64,000 bases of DNA from positions 28,410,197 to 28,474,196 of the forward strand of contig CM057149.1 in the NCBI GenBank assembly GCA_029964075.1. Direction: 5' to 3'. Origin of the DNA: Patiria pectinifera (taxonomy: Eukaryota; Echinodermata; Asteroidea; Valvatida; Asterinidae). The notes under the pieces were generated by a model that was not told the origin of the DNA, ran no database searches, and worked only from the letters and a program-made list of their open reading frames with translations. Positions 3,101 through 37,600 of this stretch are shown piece by piece. The first letter of the stretch is position 1. Every line of letters starts with the position of its first letter. A program made the position numbers and the translations under genes.

Positions 3101-6100
3101 ACTACAATTGCCTCTCTCCACCCAGGAGTATGAATAGGTACCTGTGAGGGTAGAGGACTGAATGTGCGCTGATGAAACATGGGAATAATTGTAAAGCACT
3201 TTGAGATTGTTGATATGATGGAAAGTGCTATATGAGCATTACAGTTTAAGTTTATATTGGGTTTTGCCCTTTGCTTATGTATTGAGGTGTCCATGTAAGT
3301 TGTGAGAAAAACTTCACAAGCTTACTCGGGTGGGAGTCAAACCCACAACCTCCTGCTTACTAGTGCAGACTTCATACCATTCGACCACCGAGCTACCTGT
3401 AACAGGATCGGTTTGCTGGTTCAAGTCTAAAGTAGCAGCGGGTATCGCAACCAAACTTTTTGTAAGATGGAATTTCATGTATATTTTATATTGACTTTTG
3501 GCCTTCACTGACATATTTTATAAACACTGTATACTCAGTGCTGTCCGAGGGCTTGCCAAAAAAATACACCATCCTACTCGGGTGGGACTCGAACCCACGA
3601 CCACCTTTTGTAATTTGAATGCAGCACTTCTTTGTCATTCCTTTTGTGGTAACAGGACTTGACACAGTGGCTTTGCATCATTTTGTGTGTGTTTAATTCA
3701 GGGACAGGAAAGACAGTGACGGTAGTCGAGGCGATACTGCAAGTTCATATTCACTTGCCTGCCAGCCGTATCCTAGCCTGTACTCCCTCTAACAGTGCTG
3801 CTGATCTATTGGTGAGTCTCAACCAAAGGCTTGTAATGGAAGTGCAATATTTAGCTGGAGATGGAGCTACATGTATTTAGTTGGAAAAAAATTGTTTTAC
3901 GTTTATGCTCCCATCATTTTAGTACCTTATCTTATACAGTTAACCCATTAGCACCTGTATTACATTGTTATTATTCAGCTGGTTCGGGTGCTTCAGTGAG
4001 TAAAAGAGAGGGCAGTTTCGGGCGCTACAGGTGTGCTCGCCTAGTCGAGTTCGACCCAAAAAATTTAGTTATGAACAATTATGAGTCAATCATGCAGTCA
4101 GTGACTCAGTCAGTCAGTCAGGTCCAGCAAGAATAGGTTAATTAATTACGTTGAAATATTAAAGTGTATTTGTTTTGATCAGTGATGTTATGGATTCCAT
4201 GCACAAGTTCCCCCTGCATGGCTACAAATACGACTGAGGCTTGGTGATTTTACTGATGTGTGCCCAGCTATTGCAAATTCTGTGTGTGCACATTTAGATG
4301 AAAATTTGTTGTGTAGATAATTTGCACCATACATGCATAAACAAGTACATGTACACAGAGTCATGTTTTACCATTAATCTTGAGGACAAGGCTTTGTGTT
4401 TCTCTTTCTTTCTATAATATAAAACTCTCCCATAGACTGAGCAGACAGACTTATCTTCGAGGACTGTTTCCAACAAAAGATGAATCCCACGCGGCCGCTG
4501 TCGTCATGCCATGTCATCTACCACTTTTGTGTAGAGTCCACTAATCAAGCAATGATTTGCCTTGGTTTTAAAAAACATGAATTTGATGAACAGGTTGTTT
4601 TAAAAAAATTTCCTTCTTGTAAAAAAATATCTTCTTTCATTTTGTGTCCGATATAGACTGAGCGACTTCATGAAAGCGGCAAAGTGAATCCTACTGATAT
4701 GGTCAGACTCAACGCTTTCCATCGATCTGAAGAGGTAGGACTAAAACTCATTGTGAGATATGGATGTTGGGTGCCATCTAGGGGCGGGGTATTCTGCTAA
4801 GGGAAGGATAGGATGTTTTGGGTGAGGTAAGCAAACGTTGCACTCAACAATCCTTGTCAGACACTTTTGACGCAGTGTCGATGTTATGGAACCAACCAAT
4901 CAGCAATGAAGTCATCAGTTTGTGTGTTCGTATGACATCCTTGCAACTCGCCATCCGCTAGGCGTGTTCACGGCACGGATTACATAGTGAATTGTAAATT
5001 GTCACCCTCTTTTCTGTTAAGTAACTTAATCATGTATATTTTGATTAAAATAGGATGAATTACCGAACATATGCCTTTTGTCTGTGTTTCAAAGCAGGAT
5101 TAGTCCACAGATACGAGGCTTTTCATTAGAGGCTGCCATGTTGGATTTCTACTTTTATTTGTAACAGTTCCGATAATTAAGCATATGCATATGCACACCG
5201 TTAGTAACGGTTCTGATAACTGAGCATATGCATACCAAAAGTGAAACAACGAAATGGACGATAATACTTACGGATAGCCAAACGTTTGTGTACACATATC
5301 TGTTCGAATGCAAAACCTCTCTATTAGACACACTTTACTTTTGTCTTTTTGTTCCAACAGAATATTCCAGATTGCATCAAGCCCTACTCAAAGGACGGCG
5401 AGAACTTGACGGTCATCTCCCATCAATGTATCATCATCTGCACCTGCACCACGGCGGGGAGCTTGTACCAGCTGGGCCTGAAGGCCGGTCACTTCACTCA
5501 CGTGTTTGTGGATGAAGCAGGCCAGGCTACCGAACCAGAGTGTCTTATTCCAGTGGGATTGTCAGTTGGGCCCGATGGACAGGTGAATTTATCATGTCTC
5601 TATATCTGCTGAAATATTTCGCTTTGAAACCCACTTTACTCACCACAGCAAGAACTCTGCTCATGTAACCACTCGTGACCTGTTCAATGTGCAAGCATGC
5701 ACTGGTTGGCGCATGTATTGGTACAAAGTACATGTGTGCATGATAAATTTTATTCTAAATTTGCACAAACCTCTCTCTTAGTAATTTTTCAGAGGGGATA
5801 CTTGTGCACAGACTCCATACCCGATATCTGGCTCAAAACATTCCAATTCCAACATTTTATACAAATAATGAATGTTTGTGAGTGCAGTGGTAAGAATAAT
5901 TTCATGAGGTGACAGATGAATGCTGCCGAGTGGAATGGAATATTCCTCAATTACAAATTGTTTCCATTGCACGAATGTGAAACATTCATTATTTGTTGAT
6001 ATAACACCTGAATAAATAATCATCATCTAATCGGTTGACTTGTGAACTTATACTTACATCAATGTTCTACTTTTTCAGACGAACTGGGGGTCCCTTCCAA

Positions 6101-9100: not shown

Positions 9101-12100
9101 CATTACCTCCTGCAGGTTGAGAAGATGAGGTTGTTACTTGTCTCTCTGAGCATCCACGGAATCAAGGTGGGATCTGTGGAGGAATTCCAAGGACAGGAGA
9201 GGGTTGCTATGATCATCTCCACGGTAACTACATGTACAAACAAATCACGCTCACTCCAACTGATCTTCCAAAATCTATCAAAATCCGTTGATGGGTTTAA
9301 GAATGTGAACCCCCATAGACCTTATTCACGAGGACGCCATTTCGGTCGTGTTCCCTGAATCTATTTTATAAATTGTAAATTGTTGAATGGGATGGTGCCA
9401 GACTATTTATGCGTTCCAATCCTCACTTTCAATTATTTTTTAAAATGTGGCTTTAAACATTAGGGTATGTTTAATCCCAAATCTTAATTTATTCATCAGA
9501 GCGGTCTGGTGTTCATTTGTAATTAACTTTATTTGTATTCGCAAGTTCAAATTTTTTTTTCGCCACTTTCAATTTAATATGGCTGACTCATGAATAAAGC
9601 ATATTGCACCACTACCATTACATTTACATGCATTACAAACCCTAACGCTGCCCTTCACTATAAATGTTCATTCCGTTTTATGTTCATTGCACATCTAATC
9701 CTATAGCTTAGAATGACCTTAAAATGCACATACGGAAATAAAATGGACTGAATACGTGCATGGGAAAGAGCAGCTTAAATTTGTTAGATGTATCATTTAC
9801 TATTGTCTCTGACACCACAGTACGATGCATCACATGTGTTGTCGATTGCAGTGTAAAAATACTCATGTGATTATTACGGCGTGTATTTACGGGTAGTACT
9901 GGAACCAGGTACCCCAAAATTCAAATCTTATGAGTTGCTGTTTAGATTGTTCATAAAGGTTCGCATGATGACACTACAACATCAGTGCATCAATACAGCA
10001 AGATACAAGTGTGTACAGTGAGCTTTATAGCTTTACGGCGTAAACTGCAACTTCCGCGAGCGTCATCAACATGAGATATGTTGCGTTTGTCCATGTGGCC
10101 TGGTTTCATTTTGAAAATTCCCCACAAATGACATTCAAAATTGTTTCATTGTCTGAGAAGTTACCTATTTGTAAGGTTGGTAGCGCGTACCTGATCCCAT
10201 AATCTAAAACTGGTTCCTGACATCAACTGTATGCACAGCCCTATAAACTGTGATCTGACACTTAATCCCACATTCTGTGGTATACAGTTTTACTCTGTTT
10301 GAAAAACCAAAAACAATGTTAAGAAGCGAGAAATGCATAATTGTTCGTCCCCAGGTTCGTTCCAGTGAGGATCTTCTGACCTTTGACCTGCGCCACCATC
10401 TTGGTTTCCTTAGCAACCCCAAGAGGTTCAACGTATCGATCACGCGAGCACAGGCGCTGATGATCATCGTTGGCAATCCTCATCTGCTGGCTAAGGTCAG
10501 TCACCGTAAAAGTTACAATGTTGAAAATCTCTTGGTTAGGAAAGCTCCTAGGAGAGTGTCGTGGAACCTAAGTGGCTTAACACTTGCAATGAAAACTCCA
10601 ATGCACAGGCAGTCAAAACATTCTAGAAATGTAATAATTATGGTCTCATATTAACAGTTTGACATGACCTGTTATATTTGTTGTCTTATTAATGAACCGA
10701 CTGGTTATTACGTTAACATCCCACTTTGAACAACAACATTCTGAGTTCTGAGTATTGATAAGTTCAATCGTCTTTTCTCTCATCTTTTGAAAATGGCACA
10801 TAGGTAAGACAACACATCAGTTTAAGACTGATATACCATCCCTTCGACTTGAATTTAAACTGAATAATGTTTGTTTCATGTTTTCTTCACAAAGTATGAA
10901 AATGGTTTCAATGAGCCATTTGCGAATAACCTATACCCTTTGCGAGTTATATTTGAATAACATCTGGTACACTGACTTGCTCATAATGCTTGGAAAGCTT
11001 TAACTTTGAATTCTCCAGACCAAAGACACTGTTGCTATGATTTAGCGCAAGCTCTTGCATAGTTACGTAAGAGACGCTCAGCATCAATACATTGCTCACA
11101 ATGGGTGAGAATGGCACAAAGACACCGGCCGATTCCTGAGCTGGGGGTTGCTAGCGTAAGGCTTGCTCCAAATCATGTGATATAGCAACAGTCTCTTTGG
11201 TCTGGAGAATTCAAAGTTAAAATGTGCCAAGCATTCGAGCAAGTCAGGGTACCAGATGTTACTCGAATTTAATTCGCAAATGGCTTACTGTAACCATGCT
11301 CTTCAACATATCTCATTTGTTTTCTCCTAACAAATTTCAATTTGTATGTTTAATTTAAATGGAAAAACTACCTTTTTTTGTCTATTTTGGATGCTTTTGA
11401 AAGGTTATTCTATAAGTAAAGATGGGCATATTTTTTTTGGCTAAATCTCTCCTTCAAAAGCCAGATACTTCTGGATTGCTAGAAAAATAGCAACTTAAAA
11501 GCGAAGTCTGTTTCTTGGGGCGAAACCAAACAATAGTACAGGGAACGCAACTTTAACAAAGTCTATTTCTCGGGGCGAAACTCGAATATGACACGGGGGA
11601 GCAACATATTTTTGTTTTCTGTTTTGTCTATAGGACAAGCACTGGCGTGCCCTGATTCGATACTGCATGGAGTGTGGTGCCTACACTGGTTGCCAACCAC
11701 CCACTCTCCCGCCTGAAGAGTATGATAATGAGGAGGAATTGCTGGATGGGAGTCAGGAACCAGACATGTCATCCCCACGGCAACAAGAATCAAAGATGGC
11801 TGCTGTTGCTGACACATCGAGTGAACTTGACCATGACCATGATTACCAGCTTAATGCGGTACCAGCGTCACAGTCAGACAATGGTTTTATTGAACAAGAA
11901 GCAGCAACCAAAGAGAATGGAAGCAGTGTGCTACAGAAGACCGCGCAACAAAATGAAGCACTAGAAATGTTGAATCGCGGAATCAACTCTGCCAGTCCAG
12001 ACAGGAAGACTTCTGTACAAAAGGATGAAGCTATTCTTGCCGATGTTGATGCCGACATGAACTCGGTACTACCCAGAGTTCAGATCGCGAATACCAACAA

Positions 12101-14480
12101 CTCAGTTCCTGAAGAGTCACATGGTGATCATTCTCAAGAGATAAGGAAACCAGATCACAATGACAATGGATTAACAAAAGTCACTTCCGCCCCGAACAAA
12201 CCAAACACATCAGAGTTGTTCTCAAGGGTTGATGAGCTCTCCAAAGGATTGCACCAAGCTGATTTATCCAGTGAACAACTTCAGTCATTAGCAAGTGAGA
12301 TTCCGCTAAACGGTCTTCAAAGCAAAGGTTCCAGCACAAGCCCGTCTGTCGAACCAAGATCAAACAATCAAAGGATTCTCCTTGACAAAGAGGAATCTAG
12401 GAACCCACAGTCTGAAATAATTAATGGTGTCACAAGAGCCAAACTCGGCAGGGAAGCTTTTGATAAGGAATCATCCGTGGAGAAGAAAATTCCTGTTATT
12501 TATTCTGGTGCTGGCATCTTGGATGCTGAGGATGCTTCTTCCAAGAGAGCATTGCCACATAGCTGCATGGATAAGAAACCAAGAGGACATTCATCTTTTT
12601 CATTCTCATCAAGCTCAGATTTTGATGATGCCGAAGACTTCTCAGAGTTTCTTGACGAAAATGACCTCAACAAGCTTCAATCAACAGCTGCTGTGACCCT
12701 GCAGTGTCAAACATCAAACACTCAACTACTACAAAGTCAGAATTTACCCAAGCAGGTTCCAGATTGTGGTGTCATGAGAACTCATCAGGACGAGCACTTT
12801 ACACCAAATCAAGAACCGAGCAAAGCAGGGGAAGCAAAGATATGTCAAGAAGACCGAGCTGAGGTGATGTTGTCACGTGGCAGACTCTTTGATCCTGATG
12901 AATCACACACTCAGTCTCATGCCAGCAAAGCATCCACTACGACACCGTTTTCCATCAGAGACCATGTGAGCTTTACTCAATCCGAGAACCAACCATCTCC
13001 ATCGAAAGCAGAGCCTGTGGATACTTCACACATACTTATTAAAAGTGGTGCTTGTCCCCAAGAAACTTTGAAATTGATTGAAACCACGACAAACTCTGAA
13101 GTTGACTCCATCCAAATATGTGATGAAGAGGAGGACCCAGAAATATGGGATGAGGAATATGACATCTCAAGAGTCCCTCCTCGACCTCTCCAAGAGGCAA
13201 GATATTCGCTAGACCGACCTTCTACAGGTTCTGAACAGCAGAGCGAGGAAACTGAAAAGTGGGATGACTACACTTGGGATGTCAAACCTAGAAGGGATCC
13301 ATCATTCCAACGTTTTCCATCCTTCCAAGAACCTTTACATACTCCTGAAACAGACGATGCTCTTCTGGAAGATGGGAGTTCCTTGCTTGGATCGCATGAG
13401 TTTAGTCAAGAAGGTACAGACAAGTCAAGGGTGTTTAACAATGCGACACATGTAAATCCACAAGCAAAAGAAACTGGACTTGTTGAACCAGACCACGAAA
13501 TGCCACCCCTTGAAGGCTGGTTTCAAGAGGGAATAGGCAACACAGAGAACGTACAAGAAGCTAGTCAAATCGCAACTATACAACCAGCGACAAATACTCA
13601 GGCACGCAATAGTTGTAAGTGTGAACAGGGAGAGATAAACTACCCAACAACTCCACTGACATCTCAGTCTAGTGAGCCAGCAAATGGGACCAGGGTTAAC
13701 AACGATGCAAAGTCTTCTAGACCTTTTCTTCCGGGATTGGGCAGAGGCAGGGGCATTCTCACTGAAAAACTCAGACAAGCTGGACAATCCAAGAAACTGG
13801 GAGGCAGAACCAGTCCGTTCAAGAACCCTTGGAAGATCGGCGCTCCGACATATTCCAACAGTCCAAAGACCACGACCTCCCAGCAACCTAGGCGACAGGT
13901 GCATCAGACTAATGAACCTAGATTGGACACCACTCGTGGAATGAAACACGACAATAATGAGATGATGTCTCCAAGAGCAAATGAAAACCTTGAGCTCAGG
14001 ACCCAAGGTTGTGAGCGGCAGGACGCAACGCAAACCACCACTACTACCCCTGCTCATCAAGCCCGTAACTCTGAAGTGAGCACTGACAAAGCAAGTCAGG
14101 ATAACTCTGAGCAGTCTGGCGGTGATGACGACTCAGATGACTGGAGCGGAGATCAGCATCCTCCCTTCTTGTACAAGAGGCCAGTCTCCAACCACCAGAA
14201 AGGCGGGAAATGGAAGTACACATTGCAGATGGGAAGTAACGTCTCCAGGTCTGAGACCAAGAGATACACAACGGATGAGGATTTCATGGGCGATGCTGCG
14301 CAGAGTGTCAATGCTAGGCAACATGATCGACACGGCGAGGGATGTACGAGGGCAGATCCTAAGTGGAAGGGGGCTTATCCCATCGCTGAGAGTCCGGAAA
14401 TGATGGACGATTATGACGTCATCATTGAAAGCAATGACGACAGTAGTGATTGTGCCAACACACCGCAACGTACAGTGTAG
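62..14480 (+). CDS. MOV10L1: MOV10L1-like RNA helicase, 3' part of gene (12 exons)
   Basis: UPF1-like superfamily 1 RNA helicase; in animals MOV10L1 feeds piRNA precursors to PIWI proteins in germ cells. Join 62-120, 1072-1281, 2509-2715, 3702-3811, 4657-4734, 5361-5582, 6644-6808, 7285-7464, 7929-8078, 9116-9223, 10355-10495, 11634-14480; phases agree at every junction and at least 1491 residues are visible. Motifs in order: GPPGTGKT (across the 2715/3702 junction), [42 protein letters not shown] and [10 protein letters not shown]. The run [20 protein letters not shown] fits MOV10L1 better than MOV10 from memory. The last exon keeps the family's usual end and then adds about 925 disordered residues, which vertebrate MOV10L1 lacks as I recall it. 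Upstream exons lie before base 1. MOV10 is the alternative assignment. Confidence 0.93.
121..1071. other. MOV10L1 intron, nothing recognised
   Basis: AT-rich. No SINE, MITE or open frame that I can support. Confidence 0.6.
1072..1281 (+). CDS. MOV10L1: MOV10L1 exon, basic linker before helicase core
   Basis: Acceptor gtgcag, donor AAAAAG/gtaaga. Encodes a basic, Pro/Ser/Thr-rich stretch ([13 protein letters not shown]) with no recognised domain; phase 1 at both ends. Confidence 0.75.
1365..2205. mobile_element. Old repeat with cctggaaaatcctggaattt motif
   Basis: caggattcccacagtcatgg and ctggaaaatcctggaattta at the left; gtaaaagtcctggaatttca at the right. The middle is unrecognised AT-rich DNA in a MOV10L1 intron. 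Confidence 0.4.
2509..2715 (+). CDS. MOV10L1: MOV10L1 exon, Q-motif region and start of Walker A
   Basis: Acceptor cgctag, donor CCACCTG/gtaagt. Encodes [14 protein letters not shown] and PYIIFGPPG, the conserved lead-in to motif I; the Walker A loop is completed by the next exon. Confidence 0.93.
2770..2880 (-). mobile_element. SINE fragment (ccagtccatcacagg family)
   Basis: gggtgggatgccagtccatc to gggtgaagtggtttgca; the tRNA head is missing. Confidence 0.65.
3000..3245 (+). mobile_element. tRNA-derived SINE in MOV10L1 intron
   Basis: A-box-like tggtccagtggtt and B box ggttcgaaccc, then the conserved gcccttgggcaagacactta / cacccaggagtatgaat core and a LINE-like tail aagtgctatatgagcatta. 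Confidence 0.8.
3316..3610 (-). mobile_element. tRNA-derived SINE, inverted, in MOV10L1 intron
   Basis: On the minus strand: gtcgaatggtatgaagtctg and gtgggtttgactcccacccg. A second gtgggttcgagtcccacccg head at 3568-3606 indicates two copies in tandem. Confidence 0.75.
3702..3811 (+). CDS. MOV10L1: MOV10L1 exon, Walker A end and motif Ia
   Basis: Acceptor attcag, donor CTATTG/gtgagt. Begins with [11 protein letters not shown] and contains [14 protein letters not shown] (motif Ia). Confidence 0.95.
3949..4142. mobile_element. TTAA element, ttaacccattagcacctgta family
   Basis: ttaacccattagcacctgta at the left and aggttaattaa at the right. The same end occurs inverted at 15107-15130 (tacaggtgctaatgtgttaa), where the rest of a copy runs back to about 14975. 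Confidence 0.55.
4378..4490. repeat. Dispersed repeat, aaggctttgtgtttc family
   Basis: gaggacaaggctttgtgttt, tataatataaaactctccca and gaggactgtttccaacaaaa. Also at 2222-2312 and 20860-20985. Confidence 0.6.
4657..4734 (+). CDS. MOV10L1: MOV10L1 exon
   Basis: 26 codons between atatag and GAGGAG/gtagga-type borders; TERLHESG and [11 protein letters not shown] match the family segment between motifs Ia and II. Confidence 0.9.
5361..5582 (+). CDS. MOV10L1: MOV10L1 exon, motif II (DEAG)
   Basis: 74 codons. Contains [20 protein letters not shown] with the Walker B DEAG box that coordinates Mg-ATP. Acceptor caacag, donor GGACAG/gtgaat. Confidence 0.96.
5862..5996. repeat. Foldback element in MOV10L1 intron
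   Basis: caaataatgaatgttt mirrored by aaacattcattatttg with centre gagtggaatggaatattcc. A facing relative of its outer part (ttattcaggtgttgtataaa) lies at 6400-6590, so the whole element may span 5862-6590. Confidence 0.7.
6644..6808 (+). CDS. MOV10L1: MOV10L1 exon, motif III
   Basis: 55 codons starting [14 protein letters not shown]. It ends [12 protein letters not shown] at donor ctg/gtaggt in phase 0. Its last 11 codons and donor are duplicated about 304 bp downstream (see 7066-7160). Confidence 0.95.
7066..7160 (+). repeat. Duplicate of exon 3' end plus donor in the next intron
   Basis: GGTTCGAATATAGAGACCAC onward reads [12 protein letters not shown]/gtgagt, nearly the same as [12 protein letters not shown]/gtaggt at 6773-6810, and the similarity continues into the intron (gtgttyg-gagaygtgagcg). 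Most codon changes are synonymous. No convincing acceptor precedes it, so it is either a pseudo-exon or an exon with a cryptic 5' border. Confidence 0.75.
7285..7464 (+). CDS. MOV10L1: MOV10L1 exon, motif IV region
   Basis: 60 codons starting [17 protein letters not shown] and including [19 protein letters not shown]. Acceptor tcttag, donor atg/gtaagg. Confidence 0.96.
7929..8078 (+). CDS. MOV10L1: MOV10L1 exon
   Basis: 50 codons: [19 protein letters not shown] and [11 protein letters not shown], the RecA2 segment before motif V. The donor is the weaker CAG/gttgga. Confidence 0.94.
8145..8612. mobile_element. TTAA MITE, family 1, worn copy in MOV10L1 intron
   Basis: Left end ttaaggtaaaattcaacatt is eroded; the right end gcaaatgttgtatgt is kept. 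A second right-end fragment follows at 8700-8745. Confidence 0.75.
8748..9085 (+). mobile_element. tRNA-derived SINE ending in ATT repeats
   Basis: gtgcgtaaagcgttcgcctc and ggttcgaatcctggcc head, ggttttcctccctccggaaa body, (tta)n tail. The same family is inverted at 35525-35870. Confidence 0.8.
9116..9223 (+). CDS. MOV10L1: MOV10L1 exon, motif V
   Basis: 36 codons; [20 protein letters not shown] is the conserved motif V. Acceptor ctgcag, donor ACG/gtaact. Confidence 0.96.
9224..10354. other. MOV10L1 intron, nothing recognised
   Basis: No coding or clear repeat signal seen in these 1.1 kb. Confidence 0.55.
10355..10495 (+). CDS. MOV10L1: MOV10L1 exon, motif VI
   Basis: 47 codons; [20 protein letters not shown] includes the arginine finger (VSITRA). 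Acceptor ccccag, donor AAG/gtcagt. Confidence 0.96.
10914..11285. mobile_element. MITE family 3, long inverted repeats (372 bp)
   Basis: Arms of about 115 bp: agccatttgcgaat to ccagaccaaagacactgttg, mirrored by acagtctctttggtctggag to attcgcaaatggct. Non-coding middle. Lies in the last intron of MOV10L1. Confidence 0.85.
11634..14480 (+). CDS. MOV10L1: MOV10L1 terminal exon with long disordered tail
   Basis: 948 codons and a TAG stop after acceptor tctatag. The first 20 residues ([20 protein letters not shown]) match the usual end of the helicase. The next 925 or so are rich in S, D, E, Q, N and T, with no recognised domain. Visible short motifs: a GRGRG box (13740-13754), acidic Trp motifs (WDEEYD near 13146, KWDDYTWD near 13258, DDWSGD near 14138) and an acidic end ([12 protein letters not shown]). 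The reading frame is open for 2.8 kb and uses balanced codons, so it is coding. Arg-Gly boxes and Trp in acidic context are features of Tudor- and Argonaute-binding proteins; that role here is inference. Confidence 0.92.
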   Translation, partial: DKHWRALIRYCMECGAYTGCQPPTLPPEEYDNEEELLDGSQEPDMSSPRQQESKMAAVADTSSELDHDHDYQLNAVPASQSDNGFIEQEAATKENGSSVLQKTAQQNEALEMLNRGINSASPDRKTSVQKDEAILADVDADMNSVLPRVQIANTNNSVPEESHGDHSQEIRKPDHNDNGLTKVTSAPNKPNTSELFSRVDELSKGLHQADLSSEQLQSLASEIPLNGLQSKGSSTSPSVEPRSNNQRILLDKEESRNPQSEIINGVTRAKLGREAFDKESSVEKKIPVIYSGAGILDAEDASSKRALPHSCMDKKPRGHSSFSFSSSSDFDDAEDFSEFLDENDLNKLQSTAAVTLQCQTSNTQLLQSQNLPKQVPDCGVMRTHQDEHFTPNQEPSKAGEAKICQEDRAEVMLSRGRLFDPDESHTQSHASKASTTTPFSIRDHVSFTQSENQPSPSKAEPVDTSHILIKSGACPQETLKLIETTTNSEVDSIQICDEEEDPEIWDEEYDISRVPPRPLQEARYSLDRPSTGSEQQSEETEKWDDYTWDVKPRRDPSFQRFPSFQEPLHTPETDDALLEDGSSLLGSHEFSQEGTDKSRVFNNATHVNPQAKETGLVEPDHEMPPLEGWFQEGIGNTENVQEASQIATIQPATNTQARNSCKCEQGEINYPTTPLTSQSSEPANGTRVNNDAKSSRPFLPGLGRGRGILTEKLRQAGQSKKLGGRTSPFKNPWKIGAPTYSNSPKTTTSQQPRRQVHQTNEPRLDTTRGMKHDNNEMMSPRANENLELRTQGCERQDATQTTTTTPAHQARNSEVSTDKASQDNSEQSGGDDDSDDWSGDQHPPFLYKRPVSNHQKGGKWKYTLQMGSNVSRSETKRYTTDEDFMGDAAQSVNARQHDRHGEGCTRADPKWKGAYPIAESPEMMDDYDVIIESNDDSSDCANTPQRTV

Positions 14481-14654: not shown

Positions 14655-14975
14655 ACATAAACGTCGGTGAAGGGCAAAACCTAATTTGATTTATATCACT
14701 CCGACGCAAAATTCCATCTTATAATAGTTCATGTGGTACCCGCTGCTATGTACATCAGATTCGAACCAGCCAACCGATCCCGTTAGCTCGTTGGTCGAGT
14801 GGTAAGACATCTGCACTAGAAAGCAGGAGGTCGTGGGTTTGAGTCCCACCCGAGTGATTTTTTCCAACTTTCACTCGGGAGGTAACACACTGAGTATACA
14901 GAGTTTAAACGTCGGTGAAGGGCAAAACCTAATTTGATTTATATCACCCCGACGCAAAATTCCATCTTATGAGAC
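14655..14975 (+). mobile_element. Tandem tRNA-derived SINE near the MOV10L1 3' end
   Basis: Head ttggtcgagtggtaagacat and gtgggtttgagtcccacccg at 14787-14860. The tail sequence aacgtcggtgaagggcaaaa to attccatcttat occurs both before (14657-14722) and after (14908-14972) the head, so a partial copy precedes a full one. Confidence 0.75.
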
Positions 14976-19254: not shown

Positions 19255-19490
19255 TCCACTGATGCTATAGATAACACTCACATACTTGTAATGTAGTCAC
19301 TCACTAGTCAAATCACAAGTCTGGTCAGAATCACAGACTGCCTTCATCATTGTTCATTTGAATAGCTTGTGATTGACTTATGATGACTTATGATGACTTG
19401 TGATTGACTTTTGCTGACTTGTGATTGACTTGTGATATGACCTGTGATGACATGACGGCTTATGATAGCTTGTGATGACTTGTAGTCCTC
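19255..19490. mobile_element. gagtccatcacaagtc family copy with short gacttgtgatt repeats
   Basis: Lies directly downstream of the COG5 stop codon. The right part repeats gacttatgatgacttgtgat-type units about ten times. Confidence 0.6.
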
Positions 19491-22600: not shown

Positions 22601-25600
22601 GTAGTGCATGCGGTGGGAAAGACCTTCCTTTTGAGTTTGTTACGTTTTTATCAGTAACGAATCCGGTGCCGACCCGTTACAACAAGTACCCAATTTTAAA
22701 AATTACCTGAAAAACCACTACATGCTTGAGCAGTGCAGAAATTAACGGGTTAATGGACACAAACTCACCTGAGCAAAGTCAGCTGCTAGTCTCATTTTCC
22801 CTCCTTCTCCAAGGGGGCGGATCAAGCTGGCGTGCCGGACGAACAACTCGATGGCTTCACAGGCCATCGGATGCACGCTGTATAAAACCAAAAGGAGTTC
22901 ATCACTGAATGCTCACCAAATAAAGAACATGTAAATGCAACAAGCCTGAGGCCCATTTCATTTAGCTGCTACATGTAAAGTAAACATCTGACACGAGCCA
23001 AAGTGGTCCATGAGACAGGCTTTTATCTGCGGTTTCCTTGCTATGGTATGAAATGACTAATATTTCTATTCCCCCTCTATTCCCCCTGGATGGAATGCTA
23101 GTCCATCGCAGGTTACTCCCCAGCTATAATGCCGGTACCCATTTATACTCCTTGGTGGAGCGAGGCAAGTGGGGGTAAAGTGGCTTGCCCAAGGACACAA
23201 CATATGACCAGCAGCTGGATTTGAGCCCCTGACCCTCTGATCATCAGTCATAAACCCTAACCACTAGGCCACACCCATCCAGCCACATGATAGAGTTATT
23301 ATTACTATCCTAACCTGTCGATGACAAAGTCTGTGCATTTGAACGGTGCTAAATAGTCAATTTGCACACGTGCAATGAATCCTTGTAGTTCCCTCATATA
23401 CAGAGAGCATGGTGCATCAATAGCCTCCTTGCCTGGACCACCCAGCTGCCCTCTGGAGAAACAAAGAGACAAAATGTCGATATGAGACCAAAAAAGTTTC
23501 ATTCAGTTTGCTACAATTTGCTTGTGACCAATGTTTGCTAAATAAATCGTTTTGAAGCTTAGCAAATGTATGTGTTTAGCAGTAAATTGACTCCAGGTGA
23601 CTGCTTAGGAAACAGATTCTTTAAAGAGGTCCGAAACAAAATGCCTGCCCCATAATATTCAATTTTTTTTTCTAACAAAGTTTCAATTTATATGCTTTGT
23701 TTTAACGAAAATATGTTTTTGTGCATTTTTGTAGGCATCTGCAACCCTCTTGAAAAAGGTCTTCCATTTTGTGCACAAATGAACCTGCCCTGTGAAAGCC
23801 AAATTATTGTCGGGTCACAAAAAATCTGAATTCCGTAAAGAAATAGTTATCCAACTGAATGTCGGTGGATTTCTTTTTCCATCAATGTCTAATTCAAAAG
23901 TGAAGAACTTTTATACTGCAAGGAGAATAGCAGTTGAAAAAAAAACCCCGATCTATTCTTCGAGGTCAAAGTTCGAAACATCACGTGACACGATATTAAT
24001 GCTACATTTTCAAATGTTCTTCTCCAGAATAGATAACTATTATTTAGTGTAACATTGCTATTTTTTTTAAAACTTGTCCTGAAACGATGTATTCTTTAAA
24101 TTCACTTGTGGACCTTCAATGCATTGCACATTTTGTACCGTTCAATCATACTAATAAATAAGAAAACTATCTCCTGAGTAAGTATGGAGCTCACCCCTTG
24201 AAGTCTTCATTGTGCATGGTGAGAATGATAGCCTCGATGGAATCAAAGATGGAATTGAGTAGTGGCTTGAGAGCGTTACTCATCAGAGCGACTATATCCT
24301 GGAAATGACCGAAAACATATCAACTATTAGAACATAATGGCACATCAAAAACCTTACAATTATCAAGTTTATCCACTAATATGAAAAGCTTATTGTACAA
24401 CTTGCACAGCTTGGCCACCGAAATCACCCATACTATCCACAACCTTCCAACTATCAATATTATCCACTAGCTTTACAACCCGCATAGCTTTGCAAATGCT
24501 CATACTATCCACACCCTTTCAACCATCAGCATTATCCACTAACCTATAAAGCAAGTTGTACAAGTTGCCCAAATTGGCCAGGGAAATTGCTCACACTATC
24601 CACAACCTTTCAACTATCAACGTAATCCACTAACCTGTTGAGCCAGTTGTGCAACTTGCATAGCCTGGCCAAGGAAGATGCTCATACTATCCACAACCTA
24701 CCAACTACATGTACATGTATGAACATTATCCACTTACCTGTAGTGCTAGTTGTACAACTTGCACAGCTTGGCCAGGGAAATTGCTCATACTATCCACAAC
24801 ACTTCAACTATCAACATTATTCACTAAGCTGTACAGCCAGCTGTATAACTTGCTCAGTCTGGCCAGGGAAGTTTATCACACTATCCACAACCTTTCAACT
24901 ATCAACGTTATCCACTAACCTGTAGAGCTAGTTGTACAACTTGCACAGCTTGGCCGGGGAAATTGCTCATACTATCCACAACCTTGCAACTATCAACGTT
25001 ATCCACTAACTTGTAGAGCCAGCTGAACAACTTTCACAGCCTGGTCATGGAATTTGCTATAAATACTATCCACAACCCTTCAACTATCAACATTATCCAC
25101 TAACCTGTAGCGCTAGTTGTACAACTTGCACGGCTTGGCCGGGAAAGTTGCTCATACTATCCACAACCTTGCAGACGGCTTGGTGGAAATGAAAGAGTGA
25201 GTTGACGTCGGCTACGTTCCTCATTTGACCCGAGGTCGGCGAGGCAATGACCTGGGTCGCTTCACCATCGGTAGAAAGCTGGGGAAAACATAATGGACGC
25301 AAACAAACAGTTTTAATCAAGTCAATCACACAATCAAAAGTTAAATCACAAGTCTGCTCTCAAGTAATGGTGTGTGAACATTGACAACGCGTGCATCTGT
25401 AACAATGATAGGCTTGTGAATTGGCTATATGTGCAGATTTGACACAGTAAACTCTATTTTACTTTCTTATTAAATGTGTTCAATCATAGTATGTTTATAC
25501 TTACAAGTTGTTCACACTTGGCACAGTAAAGTTTGACAGTTTTTGCCACGTTGCGTGCAACCAACAAACTCAGTCCGGTATCCACACTAGCCACATTCAA

Positions 25601-28600
25601 CTCACTGCACAGAAAAAACAATCAACAACAATTAGAAATTTAAGTGCCATTTTTCACTTAATTTTATAGAGTGTAAGGCCGATTCCAAACAAAAATCCGA
25701 AAAAAAACTAGTATCAAAATGTTGGGTGTAGGTGATTCAACGACTGTTTTGTGTCTGAACAGATATTATACACAAACAGCAGTTGTAAATGTTATTATCC
25801 TGGTCCAATATGTTTAAATAATTTAAAACGTTGGCACAGCTATGCCAGGTTTCGTAAAATCGATCGTAAGTTCATTGCGAAGCAGTGCAACAAATTTGTT
25901 GCTTATATCCTACACAAGTTATACACTGTTCAGTGAAATTGGCTGCTGTCTGTTTTTGTTCACCTTGCGATTGATTTGGCAATACTCTCCACTTCATCGT
26001 CAGAGGGTGGGCTGGAGGCCCCACTGGGAAACACCAGATTGATGGGATCAAAGAGACGTGATAGCGACCTCGTCAGGTAGGCGTTCTCAAAGGTTGATAG
26101 AGACTCCTTCAAGGCCTTCTCAGAACTGAACAGCAAAATAGAGGGAAAAGAACCACGATAAAAGCTTCATTTTTCCATGAAGAAATATAACATATAACTA
26201 ATGAAATGTCAACAACAAAAAAATCATCAAAAAGCACTGTTGTAGTATCAAGTCCATCACAAGTCCATCTCAAGTCCTCACAAGTCCATCACAAGTCCAT
26301 CACAAGTCCATCACAAGTCCTCACAAGTCCATCACAAGTCATCACAAGTCCATCAAAAGTCCATCACAAGTCCATCACAAGTCCATCACAAGTCCTCACA
26401 AGTCCATCACAAGTCCTTACAAGTCCTCACAAGTCCATCACAAGTCCATCTCAAGTCCTCACCAGTCCATCACAAGTCCATCACAAGTCCTCACAAGTCC
26501 ATCACAAGTCCTCACAAGTCCATCACAAGTCCATCACAAGTCCATCACAAGTCCATCACAAGTCCATCACAAGTCCATCACAAGTCCTCACAAGTCCATC
26601 ACAAGTCCATCTCAAGTCCTCACAAGTCCATCACAAGTCCATCACAAGTCCTTACATGTCCTCACAAGTCCATCACAAGTCCATCTCAAGTCCATCACAA
26701 GTCCATCACAAGTCCATCACAAGTCCATCAAAAGTCCTCACAAGTCCCTCACAAGTCCATCACAAGTCCTTACAAGTCCTCACAAGTCCATCACAAGTCC
26801 ATCACAAGTCCATCTCAAGTCCTCACAAGTCCATCACAAGTCCTCACAAGTCCATCACAAGTCCATCACAAGTCCATCACAAGTCCATCAAAAGTCCTCA
26901 CAAGTCCCTCACAAGTCCATCACAAGTCCTTACAAGTCCTCACAAGTCCATCACAAGTCCATCTCAAGTCCTCACAAGTCCATCACAAGTCCATCACAAG
27001 TCCATCTCAAGTCCTCACAAGTCCATCACAAGTCCATCACAAGTCCTTACAAGTCCTGACAAGTCCATCACAAGTCCATCTCAAGTCCTCACAAGTCCAT
27101 CACTATTCCATCACAAGTCATCACAAGTCCTTACAAGTCCTGACAAGTCCATCACAAGTCCATCTCAAGTCCTCACAAGTCCATCACTATTCCATCACAA
27201 GTCCATCACAAGTCCTTACAAGTCCATCATAAGTCCTTCAGTCTCGAGTCAAGTCACAAGATATTCAAATGAACTGTGACAAAAGCATTACTTCATTGTT
27301 GCTCTTGCCATGTTACAAATTTTGGACTTGTGGTTTACTTTTGACGAAACATGTGATGATCTTGATACTTGATTAGATAACTGTTAAAAAGTACACTGGG
27401 TTTTTTTCCAAATGGCTAAAGGAAGTAATTAGGAGAAACAGGAACAGAAAACTCCCAACCTGGTTTCTACAATCGATATGTTTCACAGAGAGTTGAAACT
27501 CGGCTTTCTGCCTATTCTCATCCATAAACTTTTGCTATACCTAGATGTCGAACAAAAGGATATTCCAATCGCTTTTTTTTTCACGTCCTGCATCTATTTG
27601 GAATTCCTTGCTTGGTGCTTGTTTCCCTCCAACCTATGATCTGTCCTGTTTCAAGAGGAATGTTAATTCCTACCTTCAGTTTTCCTGAATGCCAACTCTT
27701 CTTCCTATTTCTCTTGTAGCCCTGAACCTTGAGTAGTTTCAGCCTTGTTCAGGGGGAAAAAAGAAAAGGAAAAAAGGCTCACCTGTATTCCCCTATCTCT
27801 TGCTCAGCGAATGTCTCTGCCTTGGGTGAAGCAAGATAGACGGAGTCACCGCCAGCTGTGGGCGTGGCTAGACTGAACTGCTGAAGGCGTTTCCACAGTT
27901 CATTGAAGAGTCGCAAGAGTTTGGGGTATTCCCCTTCAAATGCCTGCTTGACAAAGGTAGATGCTGCAACAATAACAACAATTTCCTCAAAGTGACAAAA
28001 AGATCACATTCAACATTTGATGAAAAAAAAAACAACTCCAGTTTTGCAGCAGTACTGCCAGGGATGTATTTGAGTCCATCACAAGTCCAGTCTCAAGTAA
28101 CAGTGGATGAACAATGACAAAGGAATGCCTTTGTCAAAGCTCACTTGAATAGCTTGTGAGTTGAATTGGGACTGGAGGACTTGTGATGGTTTTGTAGGGA
28201 CTTGTGGACTCGAGTACAAGATCCTTGGGTACTGCTGCTATATCAATTATGAACCAGCCAGCTGATATTGGCAAGCTCAGTGGTCCAGATGTTAGATGTC
28301 TGCACTAGTAAGCAAAAGGTTGTGGGTTCGATTCCCAGTGGGTAAGTTTGTGAATTTTTTTTCTGACAAGCTCCTGAAATGTGCTAAGCAAACACTGCTG
28401 GTAAAATTTGTTCATTAGGGGTAGAAAATATTTCGAATGGTTTACAAACGCAGCATTATGAAGGATTTTTCAAACACTAAACACAAGAACCCCTCAGTGG
28501 TAAAAATGAAAAACATAGCACTCATGTACAGCATGTCCCGTTGCAGTGTGCAGTGAATGATGAGCATTGTTAACACATTTTTTAATGACGTTGACATGAA

Positions 28601-31600: not shown

Positions 31601-34600
31601 TTCGGTTCATTGTTCACATCCTTCAAGCAGGTTATAAAATACTTGCTGCAAAACACTCCAGCGCCCTAAATTGATTGCAGCATGCAATGTTAACTGGCAC
31701 ACTCTTTGTGCAAATTGTCACTGCTTCAGCAGGCAGTTGCAGCTGGCAGTTCCGAATATTGGTCAAAAGCAGTTTCGAGTAATCGAATATCAAGTTATTT
31801 GAAATAGTATACAGTTATTGACTGCTGTGAGTGGTGTAGTAAAACTAGCATGACTAGCCTCCCGAGGTGATCCATGAAGCATTCTATTTGTCCCGAGGCG
31901 AAGCAGAGGGAAAACAGAATGCTCCATGGATCACTGAGGGGGGATAGTTATACTACACCACGAGATAAAGCATTCAATATTTGTTTTCTAACACCTCTCC
32001 CACAGATTCTGCTTGATTTTAAGCGATAACTTATCGTAGCCTATGCATTTGCACACAATGCGTATAGTACTTTGGTTGCTACGGGTACACCGGTTGTACT
32101 TTTTGCCGTGCACAGCAAGATAGCAAAAATAGCAATGCCATGTGATTTGCTCTCAGCCGATCAAGACACAGAATCGGTTGGTGAGGTTTTATAAACATCC
32201 CTAGCCTTAAGACAAAAATTTGCCTACACACCCAATATGAACTAGAATCAATTTCAGTTAAAGAATAAACTGCTCACCTCTCCCAGGCTGGAATTGTGAC
32301 TGGCTCGGGGTCTGCACATTCAGCGCCTCTCGGATGTTCTTCTTCACGGCTTCTTGGCTCTCCTCAACGATGCGATCCACCGTCTCGTGGAGGCAGCCCA
32401 GATTGTGAAAGACTTGAAGAGAAGTGGCTACTTGAGACTGGTTCTGAGAGGAAATAAGGAACTCTTCAAGATGGTTGGCGCTAGGAATTGGCTGATGACT
32501 TATTTTATCTATTATATTCACTACTGTGAAGCTTTTAAGTGAAATTGTAAAAAAATGAACACTGTTAATTTGTAAGGTCCTAGGTTCTATACTCCTGAAT
32601 TCACTAAACAAAAAAACCCAAAATAGATGTAAATTTTGATAAAAACTGGATAGTGAGGCCTGGTTTTAGTTAAGTCCATCACAAGTCAAATCTGAAGTCA
32701 TATTTCTTATCAAATGAGTCAAATCACAATAACACGTGATGAACAATGCACAGACAAAGGAATACCCTTGTTACAGTTGAATATGTGACTAAAGATTGGA
32801 TGACTTTAGATTGACTAGTCGTTGACATGTTTACATTCAAATATTAAGCTCATTTAGAAAGCTTGATATTTCACATGAGACTAGATGACTGGTTAATTGA
32901 CTAGTGATTGACTTGTATTACGACTTGACTACGACACCATACTAAAGTCAATCAAATCTCTTGCTACCTGCGTCTCCATCCCTTGGTGAAGCATCTTCTG
33001 AGCTTGTCTCTCCACGTCCCGTCTCGCTTTCCTGATGAACAACGTGTCTTGCTCAATCACCTCAATTCCCTTCAGATCCACTCCGTGATACAGAAAGTCT
33101 GAAATGTGAAAAAGGATGGAATTTTTGCCTTCTTTGACAAAATATCAAGCAATTTTTATAAACAGTTCCAGGACAAATTATGTTAGCTTAGGGTAAACAT
33201 AACCTCAAAACAGGCTGCTTTGTTTACTCATAGAGTTAAAGAATTAATCAATCAATCAATCAAAATATTAAATTTTTACCAACACATACATGTAAATATA
33301 CAATTATTTAACATTCAAATTATGAGCTTTTGAAGTTTTGCATGGTGGAAAGATACAAAGACAAAATAAGTTTGCGGTAGCACCATGTGAATAAATCTCT
33401 TTTGTGAATAAATCACTTTCTCCTGACGACGGGCAGAGCATACTGTTCGAAACATTGAGTCCCTCCGGTTCTTTTCAGAACCACACATACTCACAAAAGA
33501 GATTTATTCACATGGTGCTACCGCAAACTTATCTTGTCTTAATTATGAGCTTGTCGAGTGGAGACCCCACTGTGTGAAGTTAACAAAGAACAATTACAAC
33601 GACAACTATACAGAAGTTAAATAACAAAAAAGTTGGTACAGAGCTAGTAAAACAAATTAAAACTGTGATTATTTGGTGTTACAGAAGGAGATTATTCTAC
33701 CAAATATTTGTTAATTAATTGGGTTTTATATTTGCGTTTCAATGAAGATACATTTGATACATTTTTAAGAGAATGATTAAGAATAAAGTGACATCTCTTG
33801 ACTAAAGCTATTGTCTCGGTCTTTGATGAGTACAATGCACAGGGTCACGTAGGCAATACACTTTTGCCGTAGATCTGGAGGCTCATTTCGGACATGGCTT
33901 AAAGAAGTAGCTCTTTTGGTATAAAAATGAAGGGAGGAAGGGAAGGGGGATTGTTTCGTATTCACTGACCTAATTCGTTCAAGCTCTGAGCCGCCTTGGT
34001 GATCTCTCGAGCTCCGCCTTGCAGCTGACTATGAAGCCGTTTACTCAGATACAGGATGCGGATGATCCTCCGCAGTAGGTCACATGCCTCCTGATTGGTA
34101 TGAAACCAGATAATCCAATCCGTGAGAGGCATTGCAATCAACACATAAAAGGACTGAAGATCTGAGGCATTGTATCATGACTTTCAATAGTGAGTGGTGA
34201 CATTACTCAGAAAACTAAAGGAAATTCTGGATTTATTTTTGTTGTGTGGAGAATTATCTTGGTTTATCTTGGTAAACTCTACACTCAAACTGTTGGACTC
34301 TGATTATGGTGGTATACGCCTGAAGCCCTGAACCCAAGTAGTGCATAATCAGTTTACTAGTGCAGTGCTCACTCCAACAGATTCAAACAAACCCTGGTGT
34401 TGGAGTTTGACTGGATAGGGAGGGTTAAAGGGAATATACATCATTTGCTTTTGCTGTAATTTTCAGAAATGGATGGATTTGGGGGGTTGGTACTATATAG
34501 CAAATATTGTTACACTGATTTTTTTGACGTTTTGGGTTTGTAAATGCTATAAAAAAACAATCATTTTCCTGTAGTCTGGTTCCCTGACTCCATTTAAAAT

Positions 34601-37600
34601 GAAACGGAGCAATTTACAGACGTTGGGAAATTGTAAGGTCAGGGAACTAGTCTAGCGGGCTTGTACCCGTTCATATTTGTGTAATCGATTGCAAACAAAT
34701 GAAGACTAACTAGATACATGTATGGTCAATTGGGGCCAGTATTTGAAATAAGCCGTTTTTTTTCCAACGTTGGTCGGCCGACCATTTTTGGAAATCAATA
34801 CGAAAATGCCACTTTTCTTGAAAATGACAGTATACCAGGTGCCATGATTTTATAGGATGCTTTAAACTGTTATTCGCTAACAGTCTAACAAAGTATTTCA
34901 AAATAATTTGGTAGTTCTATTTTTTGAGGTTTGCAAATGTTGTATGTTCCCTTTTATGGACTGTTTGTTAGACAAGGTTTAATTTACCTGAAGTCGTCGT
35001 AGCTGGGCCGTTCTGGCAACTATCTTGTTGTAAGGTTCTACAATTTTATTTCGAATCCTGAAAGAAAAAGCCAAGATTTCTTTAATAACTTTATGTCAAT
35101 TCATTCGATTTTAACTAACTCATTCAATTTTGTTTAAGAAGTTTCTCCCAATTTTCCCATGAACTTATGTGGGCCAACTTTGATCTCTCTCCCTCTGTCT
35201 CTGTTCTACTAAAAACTGATTTTTAAAATCAGTTTCAATATTAATGAATGAAATCATGATAAAATTAAATGTTGGACCAACCTTTCTACTGCAGACTGAA
35301 GTGACTCGATTCTTGTATTCATCATCTGCAGAACGCCTTCCAGAGTTTCGATGCCAGTGGCCTGTGAGAGCAAGTCCTCATGGTGAGCTGAAACCTGTGG
35401 ATAGATGAAGGTTTCCGTGTCGAAAATTAATACTTTAGCTGCCTTTTTTGACACAACAGTGTTGAAGTTGAGTACATCACAAGTCCGGTAACAAGAAAAT
35501 CACAAGTCCAGTCACGAGGAACTGTGGCGAGGGTTCAAACTGGTGACCCACAGACTGCCAATAAATAAATTAATAAATCAATAATTTGGGGGCTAATCGT
35601 CCTTATTCGTAGCAGAAGCTGAATTGTGATGGACGCAGCTACAACGTGGTCGAGCCCAAGGCACGTGAAGGGCAGCCACCATAGGACCAATGTCTTACCA
35701 TGGAGCATAGCCAGATCAAAAGTGTTGATGAAAATCAAAAAGCTGCCGTAAACCCTCGCGGTACAAGAGAGATTCAACATACACTCTACTCACATATGAC
35801 CCAAGCCGAAAATTGAACCCAGGTACATGTAACATCAATGAGAGGCGAACGCTTTACGCACTGCGCCAAGACTTTACAAAACTGGGCCTGCAGCGTTTGG
35901 TCCCACAGACTGAGTTTAGACTGTCCACAGTTAGTTTAGACAGTTGCTCTGTCAGATATACACAAGGCGCTGTGGCATACTAAGCCTACTTGGTATCAAG
36001 TGACAAGAGTTTGAACCTGTAACCCACAGACGACAGGAAAGGCTCTCCTACTTGTGCTTGCAGATCCTTGTCCAGTAGACTGATCCTCTCAACTAGTTTA
36101 GACAATTGCTCTTTGAGATATCCAGAGAGCTGTGGCATACTAGGCCTACACTGTAACAAGTGACAAGGGTTCGAACCTGTAACCCACAGATTGATGGTAA
36201 AGGCTCTCCTACCCGTGCATGCAGTTTCTTGTCCAGCAGACTGATACCCTCGGCTAGTTTAGACAGTTACTCTGTCACATATACACGGAGCTGTGGCATA
36301 CTAAGCCTACACTGCAACATGTGACAAGGGTTGGAACCCTTAACCCACAGACTGCAGGTAAAGCATCTCCTACCTGTGCATGCAGCTCTTTGTCCAATAC
36401 ACTGATACCCTTGGCTCCCTGCGACAGTTGCTCTGTGAGATATCCACAGAGCTGTGGCATACTGCTTTGGTATCAACCAAAGGGGTTTTCGAACCTGTAA
36501 ACAATAGACTGCAGGTAAAGGTTACATCCTACCTGTGCATGCAGCTCCTTGTCAAGTAGACTGATGCCCTCGGCTAGTTTTGACAGTTGCTCTGTGATGG
36601 CCATGCTTTGCATGACCTGGTTGGTATGCTCTTGGACATTGAAGTCATCTTGCAAGAACTCCTGTAGGGTCTCTGAAACGAGGACAATTTACAAATCGTG
36701 CTCAAATTTGAGACTCTTGCAGTAATGGTATTTTTTTGTTTTATTACTTCCAAGACAATGATTGGCAGAACTCATGAAAAGAGGCAACATAAAAATCAGG
36801 CTTGCTCAAATGATATTTTAGGGGGGGGGGGGGGCTTCAGAGCCAAGGTAAAAAAAATATTGGCCTAGCCTACTGACAGTCCACTTTCTGGGTAGGTCCT
36901 ATTGGCAGTTTATCCCCCATGCATTCAGGACCTAGGTTTACGAAAAATAGACATCTGAAAAAGGCAGCACTTTCTGATTAGCTAGTATGAGTATGAGGGT
37001 GAGTATGCTTCTAGTTCTAAAGCAAAAACAAACTACAAACTAAGCCTAAAAATGTGAAAATCAAAATTTGACAAAGTTCGACATGCTTTTGTACAAGGTG
37101 GAAGTGTGGCCCTTATTTACGGAGGTAGGCCTAGTCCAGTGGCGACATTTATGGGGCTATGCCCTATCAGTATCAAGCATGTCAAGTATCAGTCTGGGCT
37201 CTGGAGTGCTCTGAAAGGTGCAAAACTAAATCAGAACCACTTTACTCACAGTTTAGCCTGCAAGTTTCTCCAAAAATTCCACTGGGGCAAAGAAAATGTC
37301 CTCAGTATTTCACCAACCAAGTTTGCAGACTCAATTCAATTTGTAAAGGAGACTTTTCTTCAATATTTTGCACATGAGAGGGAAGTCAAGTGATTTCAAA
37401 ATGGGGCTAAACATGCTAAATACTAGACTTGTGGGGAAAAGTTCCATACTCGGATGTCAATTTATCTGCTGCCAAACATATTAATTGTCACCTCACCTTG
37501 TCATTTGAACCAAGAGAAATCCAGGAAGCTGTGTTAAGGTGGAAAAAAAATACTCAAAATGTGTTTTTAGAGCACATTTTGGATGCATACGTCGTGCAGA

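Follow-up and report, generated by a model that had tools for sequence, protein, structure and literature searches.

Exon-end copies in intron 14 of Patiria pectinifera COG5 are best explained as a boundary-spanning minisatellite

The question raised by this locus is why an exon is followed, within the intron downstream of it, by a tandem series of copies of its own 3' end, two of which differ from the exon at silent positions only. Such copies could be alternative exons that lengthen the protein, or they could be repeats that leave with the intron. The stretch analysed (the window) comprises 64,000 nucleotides of P. pectinifera contig CM057149.1, and the gene lies on its minus strand, to which the feature coordinates below refer unless a plus strand is given. 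The gene was assigned as COG5 from 17 joined exon pieces, which matched the Pfam families COG5_C (4.9e-53) and COG5_N (4.8e-16). PDB searches with the exon 14 and joined COG5 peptides as queries returned no match.

Exon 14 occupies 25105..25278, and its 3' end at 25105 reads CAG/GTTAGT. The repeated unit of 91 nt consists of the final 63 exonic nt (the core, 25167-25105, which is the exonic part of the exon's own unit, u0) together with the donor, from 25104, in 28 nt of intron (GTTAGT and the remaining intronic part of u0, 25077..25104). Past the exon, eight more units of about 91 bp were found, each starting at the higher coordinate of its range. Unit u1 (24983..25076) is 94 nt long and open, u2 (24892..24982) is 91 nt long with a silent-only core, and u3 (24801..24891) is 91 nt long and open with replacements, its donor being lost (CTTAGT). 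Unit u4 (24698..24800) extends to 103 nt owing to a 12-nt insert in the intron part, and has a silent-only core and the donor CAG/GTAAGT. Units u5 (24607..24697, open) and u6 (24516..24606, final codon TAG) are both 91 nt long, u7 (24444..24515) is shortened to 72 nt, and u8 (24353..24443, 91 nt) contains an in-frame stop and the donor ATTAGT. The intron ends with a nonrepeated segment that carries the true acceptor, TCATTTCCAG (24299..24352), and exon 15 starts at 24298. Intron 14 therefore measures 806 nt, of which 752 nt (about 93%) are made up of the eight units and the first 28-nt intron part.

The array scored 798 in TRF, and self-BLAST gave E values as low as 2.6e-163, far above chance. 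Both natural boundaries, the exon 14 donor and the exon 15 acceptor, are intact, and all copies lie between the two. Only the 3' end of exon 14 was duplicated, and the acceptor half is absent from the copies. Reading through the exon 14 donor would meet a TAA three codons on. The initial annotation had described six copies after the exon; the array that it described is real, but the count is eight, as u7 and u8 are also present and carry the array to 24353. We reproduced its observation of 4 differences from the exon in the core at 24982-24920 (u2) and 5 in that at 24800-24738 (u4), every one synonymous, and likewise its description of the other four as three open copies with amino acid changes (u1, u3, and u5) and one with a stop (u6).

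That the intron 14 array is an artefact of assembly is hardly credible. The locus gave a single match in the assembly (613.5 Mb, 1020 contigs), and there is thus no second haplotype with which the array could be compared. However, as many as 19 of the 63 core bases differ between units and single units have indels of their own, unlike what falsely repeated reads would show, and other genes carry similar arrays (see below).

Seven copies could be aligned (u7 was left out), and changes were scored against their consensus. The first, second, and third codon positions and the intron part showed 16, 12, 21, and 20 changes per 147, 147, 147, and 196 site-copies, respectively (p=0.45). When each distinct change was counted once, the corresponding values were 14, 12, 15, and 18 (p=0.95). 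Among the distinct core changes of u1, u3, u5, u6, and u8, the silent share was 11/39, against 26% expected (p=0.45). The pooled copies therefore change equally at all three codon positions and in the intron part, and selection, which the initial annotation had thought to see in them, was not confirmed. Equal divergence of the cores and the intron parts is also one of the two observations that this annotation had named as refuting its reading as exons, the other being a lack of spliced reads.

The silent-only difference between the exon and its best copies was traced largely to the exon. A consensus drawn from these seven copies encodes the exon 14 peptide, with u2 and u4 each one base away from it, and exon 14 differs from this consensus at five sites, all of them silent. 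Three of the exon's silent bases, in the codons TTT, GCC, and GCG, are private to it and occur in 0/7 alignable copies, while for the remaining two differences (AAC and CCC) the exon's base is present in some copies. Since no alignable copy has an exon-private base, in the simplest history three or more of the changes took place in the exon. The silent-only pattern is thus deduced to result largely from silent changes of the exon itself, where selection removes replacements. Neutral decay of the copies, combined with silent-only change of the exon, leads to an exon and well-preserved copies that differ at silent sites only. It follows that silent changes in an exon can mimic purifying selection on its copies, and in-frame intronic repeats may give a false appearance of selection.

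The copies have not changed to the same extent. For u1, u2, u3, u4, u5, u6, and u8, the core changes against the consensus numbered 10, 1, 11, 1, 8, 8, and 10, respectively (dispersion p=0.017), and the two slowest copies, u2 and u4, are exactly the silent-only ones, with 2 core changes in total, both silent (p=0.07), a number too small to be decisive. The comparison of u2 with u4 gives 2 differences over the 63 bases of the core but 5 over the 28 of the intron part (p=0.027); in u4 the intron part has drifted and the core has not. The low change of these two copies fits local conversion or different ages, and it also fits constraint on both cores.

Gene conversion, either from the exon or between copies, would keep the cores alike and is regarded as possible but clearly the lesser likelihood as a separate explanation; its between-copies form would be a detail of the minisatellite reading preferred below. 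That u2 and u4 are nearly identical over the core and less alike over the intron part is what a short conversion tract would give, and homogenisation within a cluster is reported for the amphioxus globin mirages (PMC3087553). On the other hand, recent conversion from the present exon, which the initial annotation had offered as a way of keeping the array similar, is contradicted by the lack of the three exon-private bases in all seven alignable copies, and the other five copies, which lie 8 to 11 changes from the consensus, speak against homogenisation across the whole array. A neutral duplication of two-unit dimers was also considered, as exon-like and diverged cores alternate and TRF gave a period of 194. 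This was rejected because one event should give like distances, whereas the pair distances are unequal (14/63 for u1 and u3, 4 for u0 and u2, and 2 for u2 and u4). The tree of the units was poorly supported, with bootstrap values of 38 to 65.

A second, independent array was found in the same gene. The start of exon 2 (36533..36672) was read from the acceptor CGTTTCAG. The end of this exon (36595-36533) supplies the exonic portion of the array, which spans 35932..36597 with a period of about 161 nt, was first indicated by TRF and the list of open reading frames, and comprises the exon unit and four copies. The copies start at 36438, 36277, 36116, and 35954, the last being degraded, and the unit joins the exon 2 end to the donor GTAGG and roughly 100 nt of intronic sequence. 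Against the consensus of the first three copies (v1 to v3; the degraded fourth was excluded and one column was ambiguous), 3/3 changes of exon 2 are silent. None of v1 to v3 has an AG directly 5' of the 63-nt core, and v2 contains a stop. Judged from its sequence, the second array serves as an internal control, in that the silent-only signature appears to arise where in-frame splicing of a whole core is unlikely.

The capacity of the intron 14 copies to be spliced was assessed from their acceptors, donors, and frames. The initial annotation was correct that an AG precedes most cores: it stands directly 5' of 6/8 and is absent at u1, where the preceding bases are AAGG, and at u4, where GT precedes the core (AAGT). 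The pyrimidine fraction at positions −20 to −5 was 0.44 to 0.50 for all eight copies, corresponding to the 25th to 42nd percentile of sense-strand AGs in the gene region. For comparison, four COG5 acceptors placed by frame had fractions of 0.62 to 0.75, and the best nearby AG at 13 more exons gave 0.56 to 0.88, a set that is biased upward. A single AG within the array, with a fraction of 0.69, falls inside the range of the real acceptors. The donor GTTAGT is retained in u1, u2, u5, and u6, u4 has GTAAGT, and the donors of u3, u7, and u8 are lost; an open frame and a donor are both kept in u1, u2, u4, and u5. Units u1 to u6 were scanned for in-frame open exons of 9 to 160 nt ending at the donor position, which gave three options for u2 (63, 90, and 111 nt) and two each for u1 and u5, while neither u4 nor u6 has an AG that yields such an exon.

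These data bear directly on the proposal of the initial annotation that the cores are alternative exons lengthening COG5. That one or more copies act as cassette exons, each adding 21 residues, is considered highly improbable. The strongest candidate is u2, which has an AG directly 5', keeps its donor and an open frame over 63 nt, and encodes the same peptide as the exon, so that an in-frame exon of any of its three scanned lengths would be possible; the donor CAG/GTAAGT of u4 and the little-changed cores of u2 and u4 point the same way. Even for u2, however, the pyrimidine fraction is 0.44, at the 25th percentile of the sense-strand AGs, and u4 and u6 have no AG for an in-frame exon in the scanned range, while u3 has no donor. 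The pooled copies change at neutral rates, the acceptor half of exon 14 does not belong to the duplicated part, and the exon 2 array is equally silent-only even though v1 to v3 have no AG directly at the core. For the array as a whole, with u2 set aside, alternative exons were rejected on the rates of change, the strength of the acceptors, and the frame.

It is similarly most unlikely that the extra donors function as decoys or U1-binding sites that tune the splicing of exon 14. Their retention as GTTAGT in four copies and as GTAAGT in u4 would be in keeping with such a role, but three copies have lost the donor, and the intron parts drift as fast as the cores.

The intron 14 array is very likely a boundary-spanning minisatellite of the kind termed a mirage, the copies of which would be spliced out as part of the intron and decay neutrally. 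The minisatellite reading was among those offered by the initial annotation and is the one upheld here: the array is tandem, crosses the exon-intron boundary, and is one of several in the genome. In the proposed history, a tandem duplication would have captured the 3'-terminal 63 nt of exon 14 along with the donor and 28 intronic nt, and slippage or unequal exchange would have expanded it to nine units, until the array filled almost all of intron 14. The gene would have stayed intact, with the unit nearest the body of the exon still forming its genuine end and the genuine acceptor lying past the final copy. The first donor presumably joins exon 15, and all copies would leave with the intron. 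The copies would then have decayed neutrally while the exon held its protein and gained silent changes, and u2 and u4 may be younger or may have been homogenised with each other. There is a slight chance that u2 (24982-24920), the one silent-only core to combine an AG, a donor, and an open frame of 63 nt, occasionally enters the mRNA as an exon and that u2 and u4 have diverged little owing to constraint. If true, this would represent a mirage unit caught becoming an exon.

Similar arrays were sought at other exons of the genome, in which the family matches lay mostly on contigs C1 to C22. The sample comprised the best 30 of 75 myosin, the best 30 of 130 kinesin, and the best 30 of 69 dynein matches, from which 13/90 loci were removed as near-duplicates to leave 77 nonredundant exon loci; exon ends were taken as the limits of the family match, and arrays beginning past them may be missed. 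Boundary arrays were present at 6/77 loci. Five of these (L008, L009, L065, L077, and L086, the last weak) have copies of the 3' end and donor downstream, and at L032, alone among the 77, the acceptor and the start of the exon are copied upstream. The most striking of the sample is L077, where the end of a dynein exon is repeated over 1632-3023 with 74 to 97% identity and a period of about 166 to 170 bp. Three other arrays, at L012, L018, and L023, adjoin the donor; they begin in the intron or at its edge and not within the exon itself, and were left out of the count.

A mechanism by which arrays seek out exon ends was also considered. Of the 46 self-BLAST clusters at the 77 loci, 6 lay over an exon end, while random placement would give 7.3 (P=0.78), with 5 at 3' ends (3.7 expected, P=0.31) and 1 at 5' ends (3.7 expected, P=0.10). 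The version based on TRF arrays, which is less sensitive, gave 1/43 at the 3' end, where random placement predicts 1.7, and none at the 5' end, where it predicts 1.6. As the overlap does not exceed the random level, no exon-seeking mechanism is needed. We infer that minisatellites arise anywhere and that a gene tolerates those spanning a boundary since the boundary survives in one of the units.

Some pairs of sampled exon loci, such as L063/L064 and L033/L034, were 95 to 100% identical at separate places on C19, C20, C17, and C21; they probably reflect recent duplication or haplotypes that the assembly retained. Other repeats and features were also noted in and around COG5. An 11-bp minisatellite, CAAGTCCATCA, is present in about 93 copies in a COG5 intron at window positions 26249-27240 (and 19366-19483), and related repeats of the ACAAGTC type adjoin the donors at L012 and L018, so that the family may be genome-wide. 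Inside a COG5 intron, Rfam matched a histone 3' UTR stem-loop at 33462-33507 on the plus strand (40.5 bits, E 1.8e-08), which is perhaps part of a repeat; no histone ORF was recognised beside it when the ORF list was inspected by eye. A 948-codon ORF lies at 11634-14480 on the plus strand, about 5 kb past the 3' end of COG5, and modest Rfam tRNA matches at 14785-14857 (plus strand, 38.4 bits) and 3322-3394 (minus strand, 35.9 bits) are possibly tRNA-derived repeats.

Tandemly duplicated, mutually exclusive exons are a known class of exon, and the COG5 array resembles them in having exon-like tandem units, several of which keep the frame. It is unlike them in that its copies consist of the 3' end of the exon only, with neither an acceptor nor a pyrimidine tract. 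The Rogers model of intron gain by AG/GT tandem duplication, as cited in PMC3087553, likewise involves the duplication of splice signals beside an exon. In COG5, unlike in that model, neither a new intron nor a new exon is evident, and the copies lie inside an existing intron.

The closest likeness is to the mirages of amphioxus, which are described as repeats spanning exon-intron boundaries in Adh3 (units of 10 to 72 bp), BflGb6 (150 to 160), and BflGb9 (157) (PMC3087553). According to the same paper, RT-PCR suggests that splicing is undisturbed and BflGb6 haplotypes vary in the number of units, and its authors propose that mirage units may turn into exons and thereby create introns (PMC3087553). 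Lancelet PGBD5 is reported to have arrays of 60 and 108 bp at splice sites; on a reading comparable to that of alternative exons here, one annotation had counted two of the repeats as an exon, which the authors omitted (PMC3902484). The mirages of Adh3, BflGb6, BflGb9, PGBD5, and troponin C share with the present arrays the boundary-spanning tandem repeats that carry copies of splice signals, the involvement of both 3' and 5' exon ends, and units of tens of bases to about 160 (PMC3087553, PMC3902484). Among the open-licence papers listed by the searches there was no report of mirage minisatellites in echinoderms, an absence that carries little weight, and the COG5 array is probably of the known mirage type in a lineage for which none had come to notice. 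It differs from the amphioxus cases in belonging to an echinoderm genome, in having a companion array in the same gene, and in being known here from the DNA sequence. Of four tektin exons retrieved from the genome, two were compared with PDB entries, and both matched chains of 8snb, the sea urchin doublet, best, by 35 and 74 bits over the next entry; the other animal tektins that could be named among the matches were mammalian, so that on this comparison a lancelet is the less likely source. The GFP family gave no match in the genome, a weak negative given that control genomes gave none either, and COX1 was not found. The occurrence of boundary arrays at 6 of the 77 sampled exons suggests that minisatellites spanning a boundary occur outside the lancelets as well, and these exons form a natural set for asking whether the copies become exons or introns.
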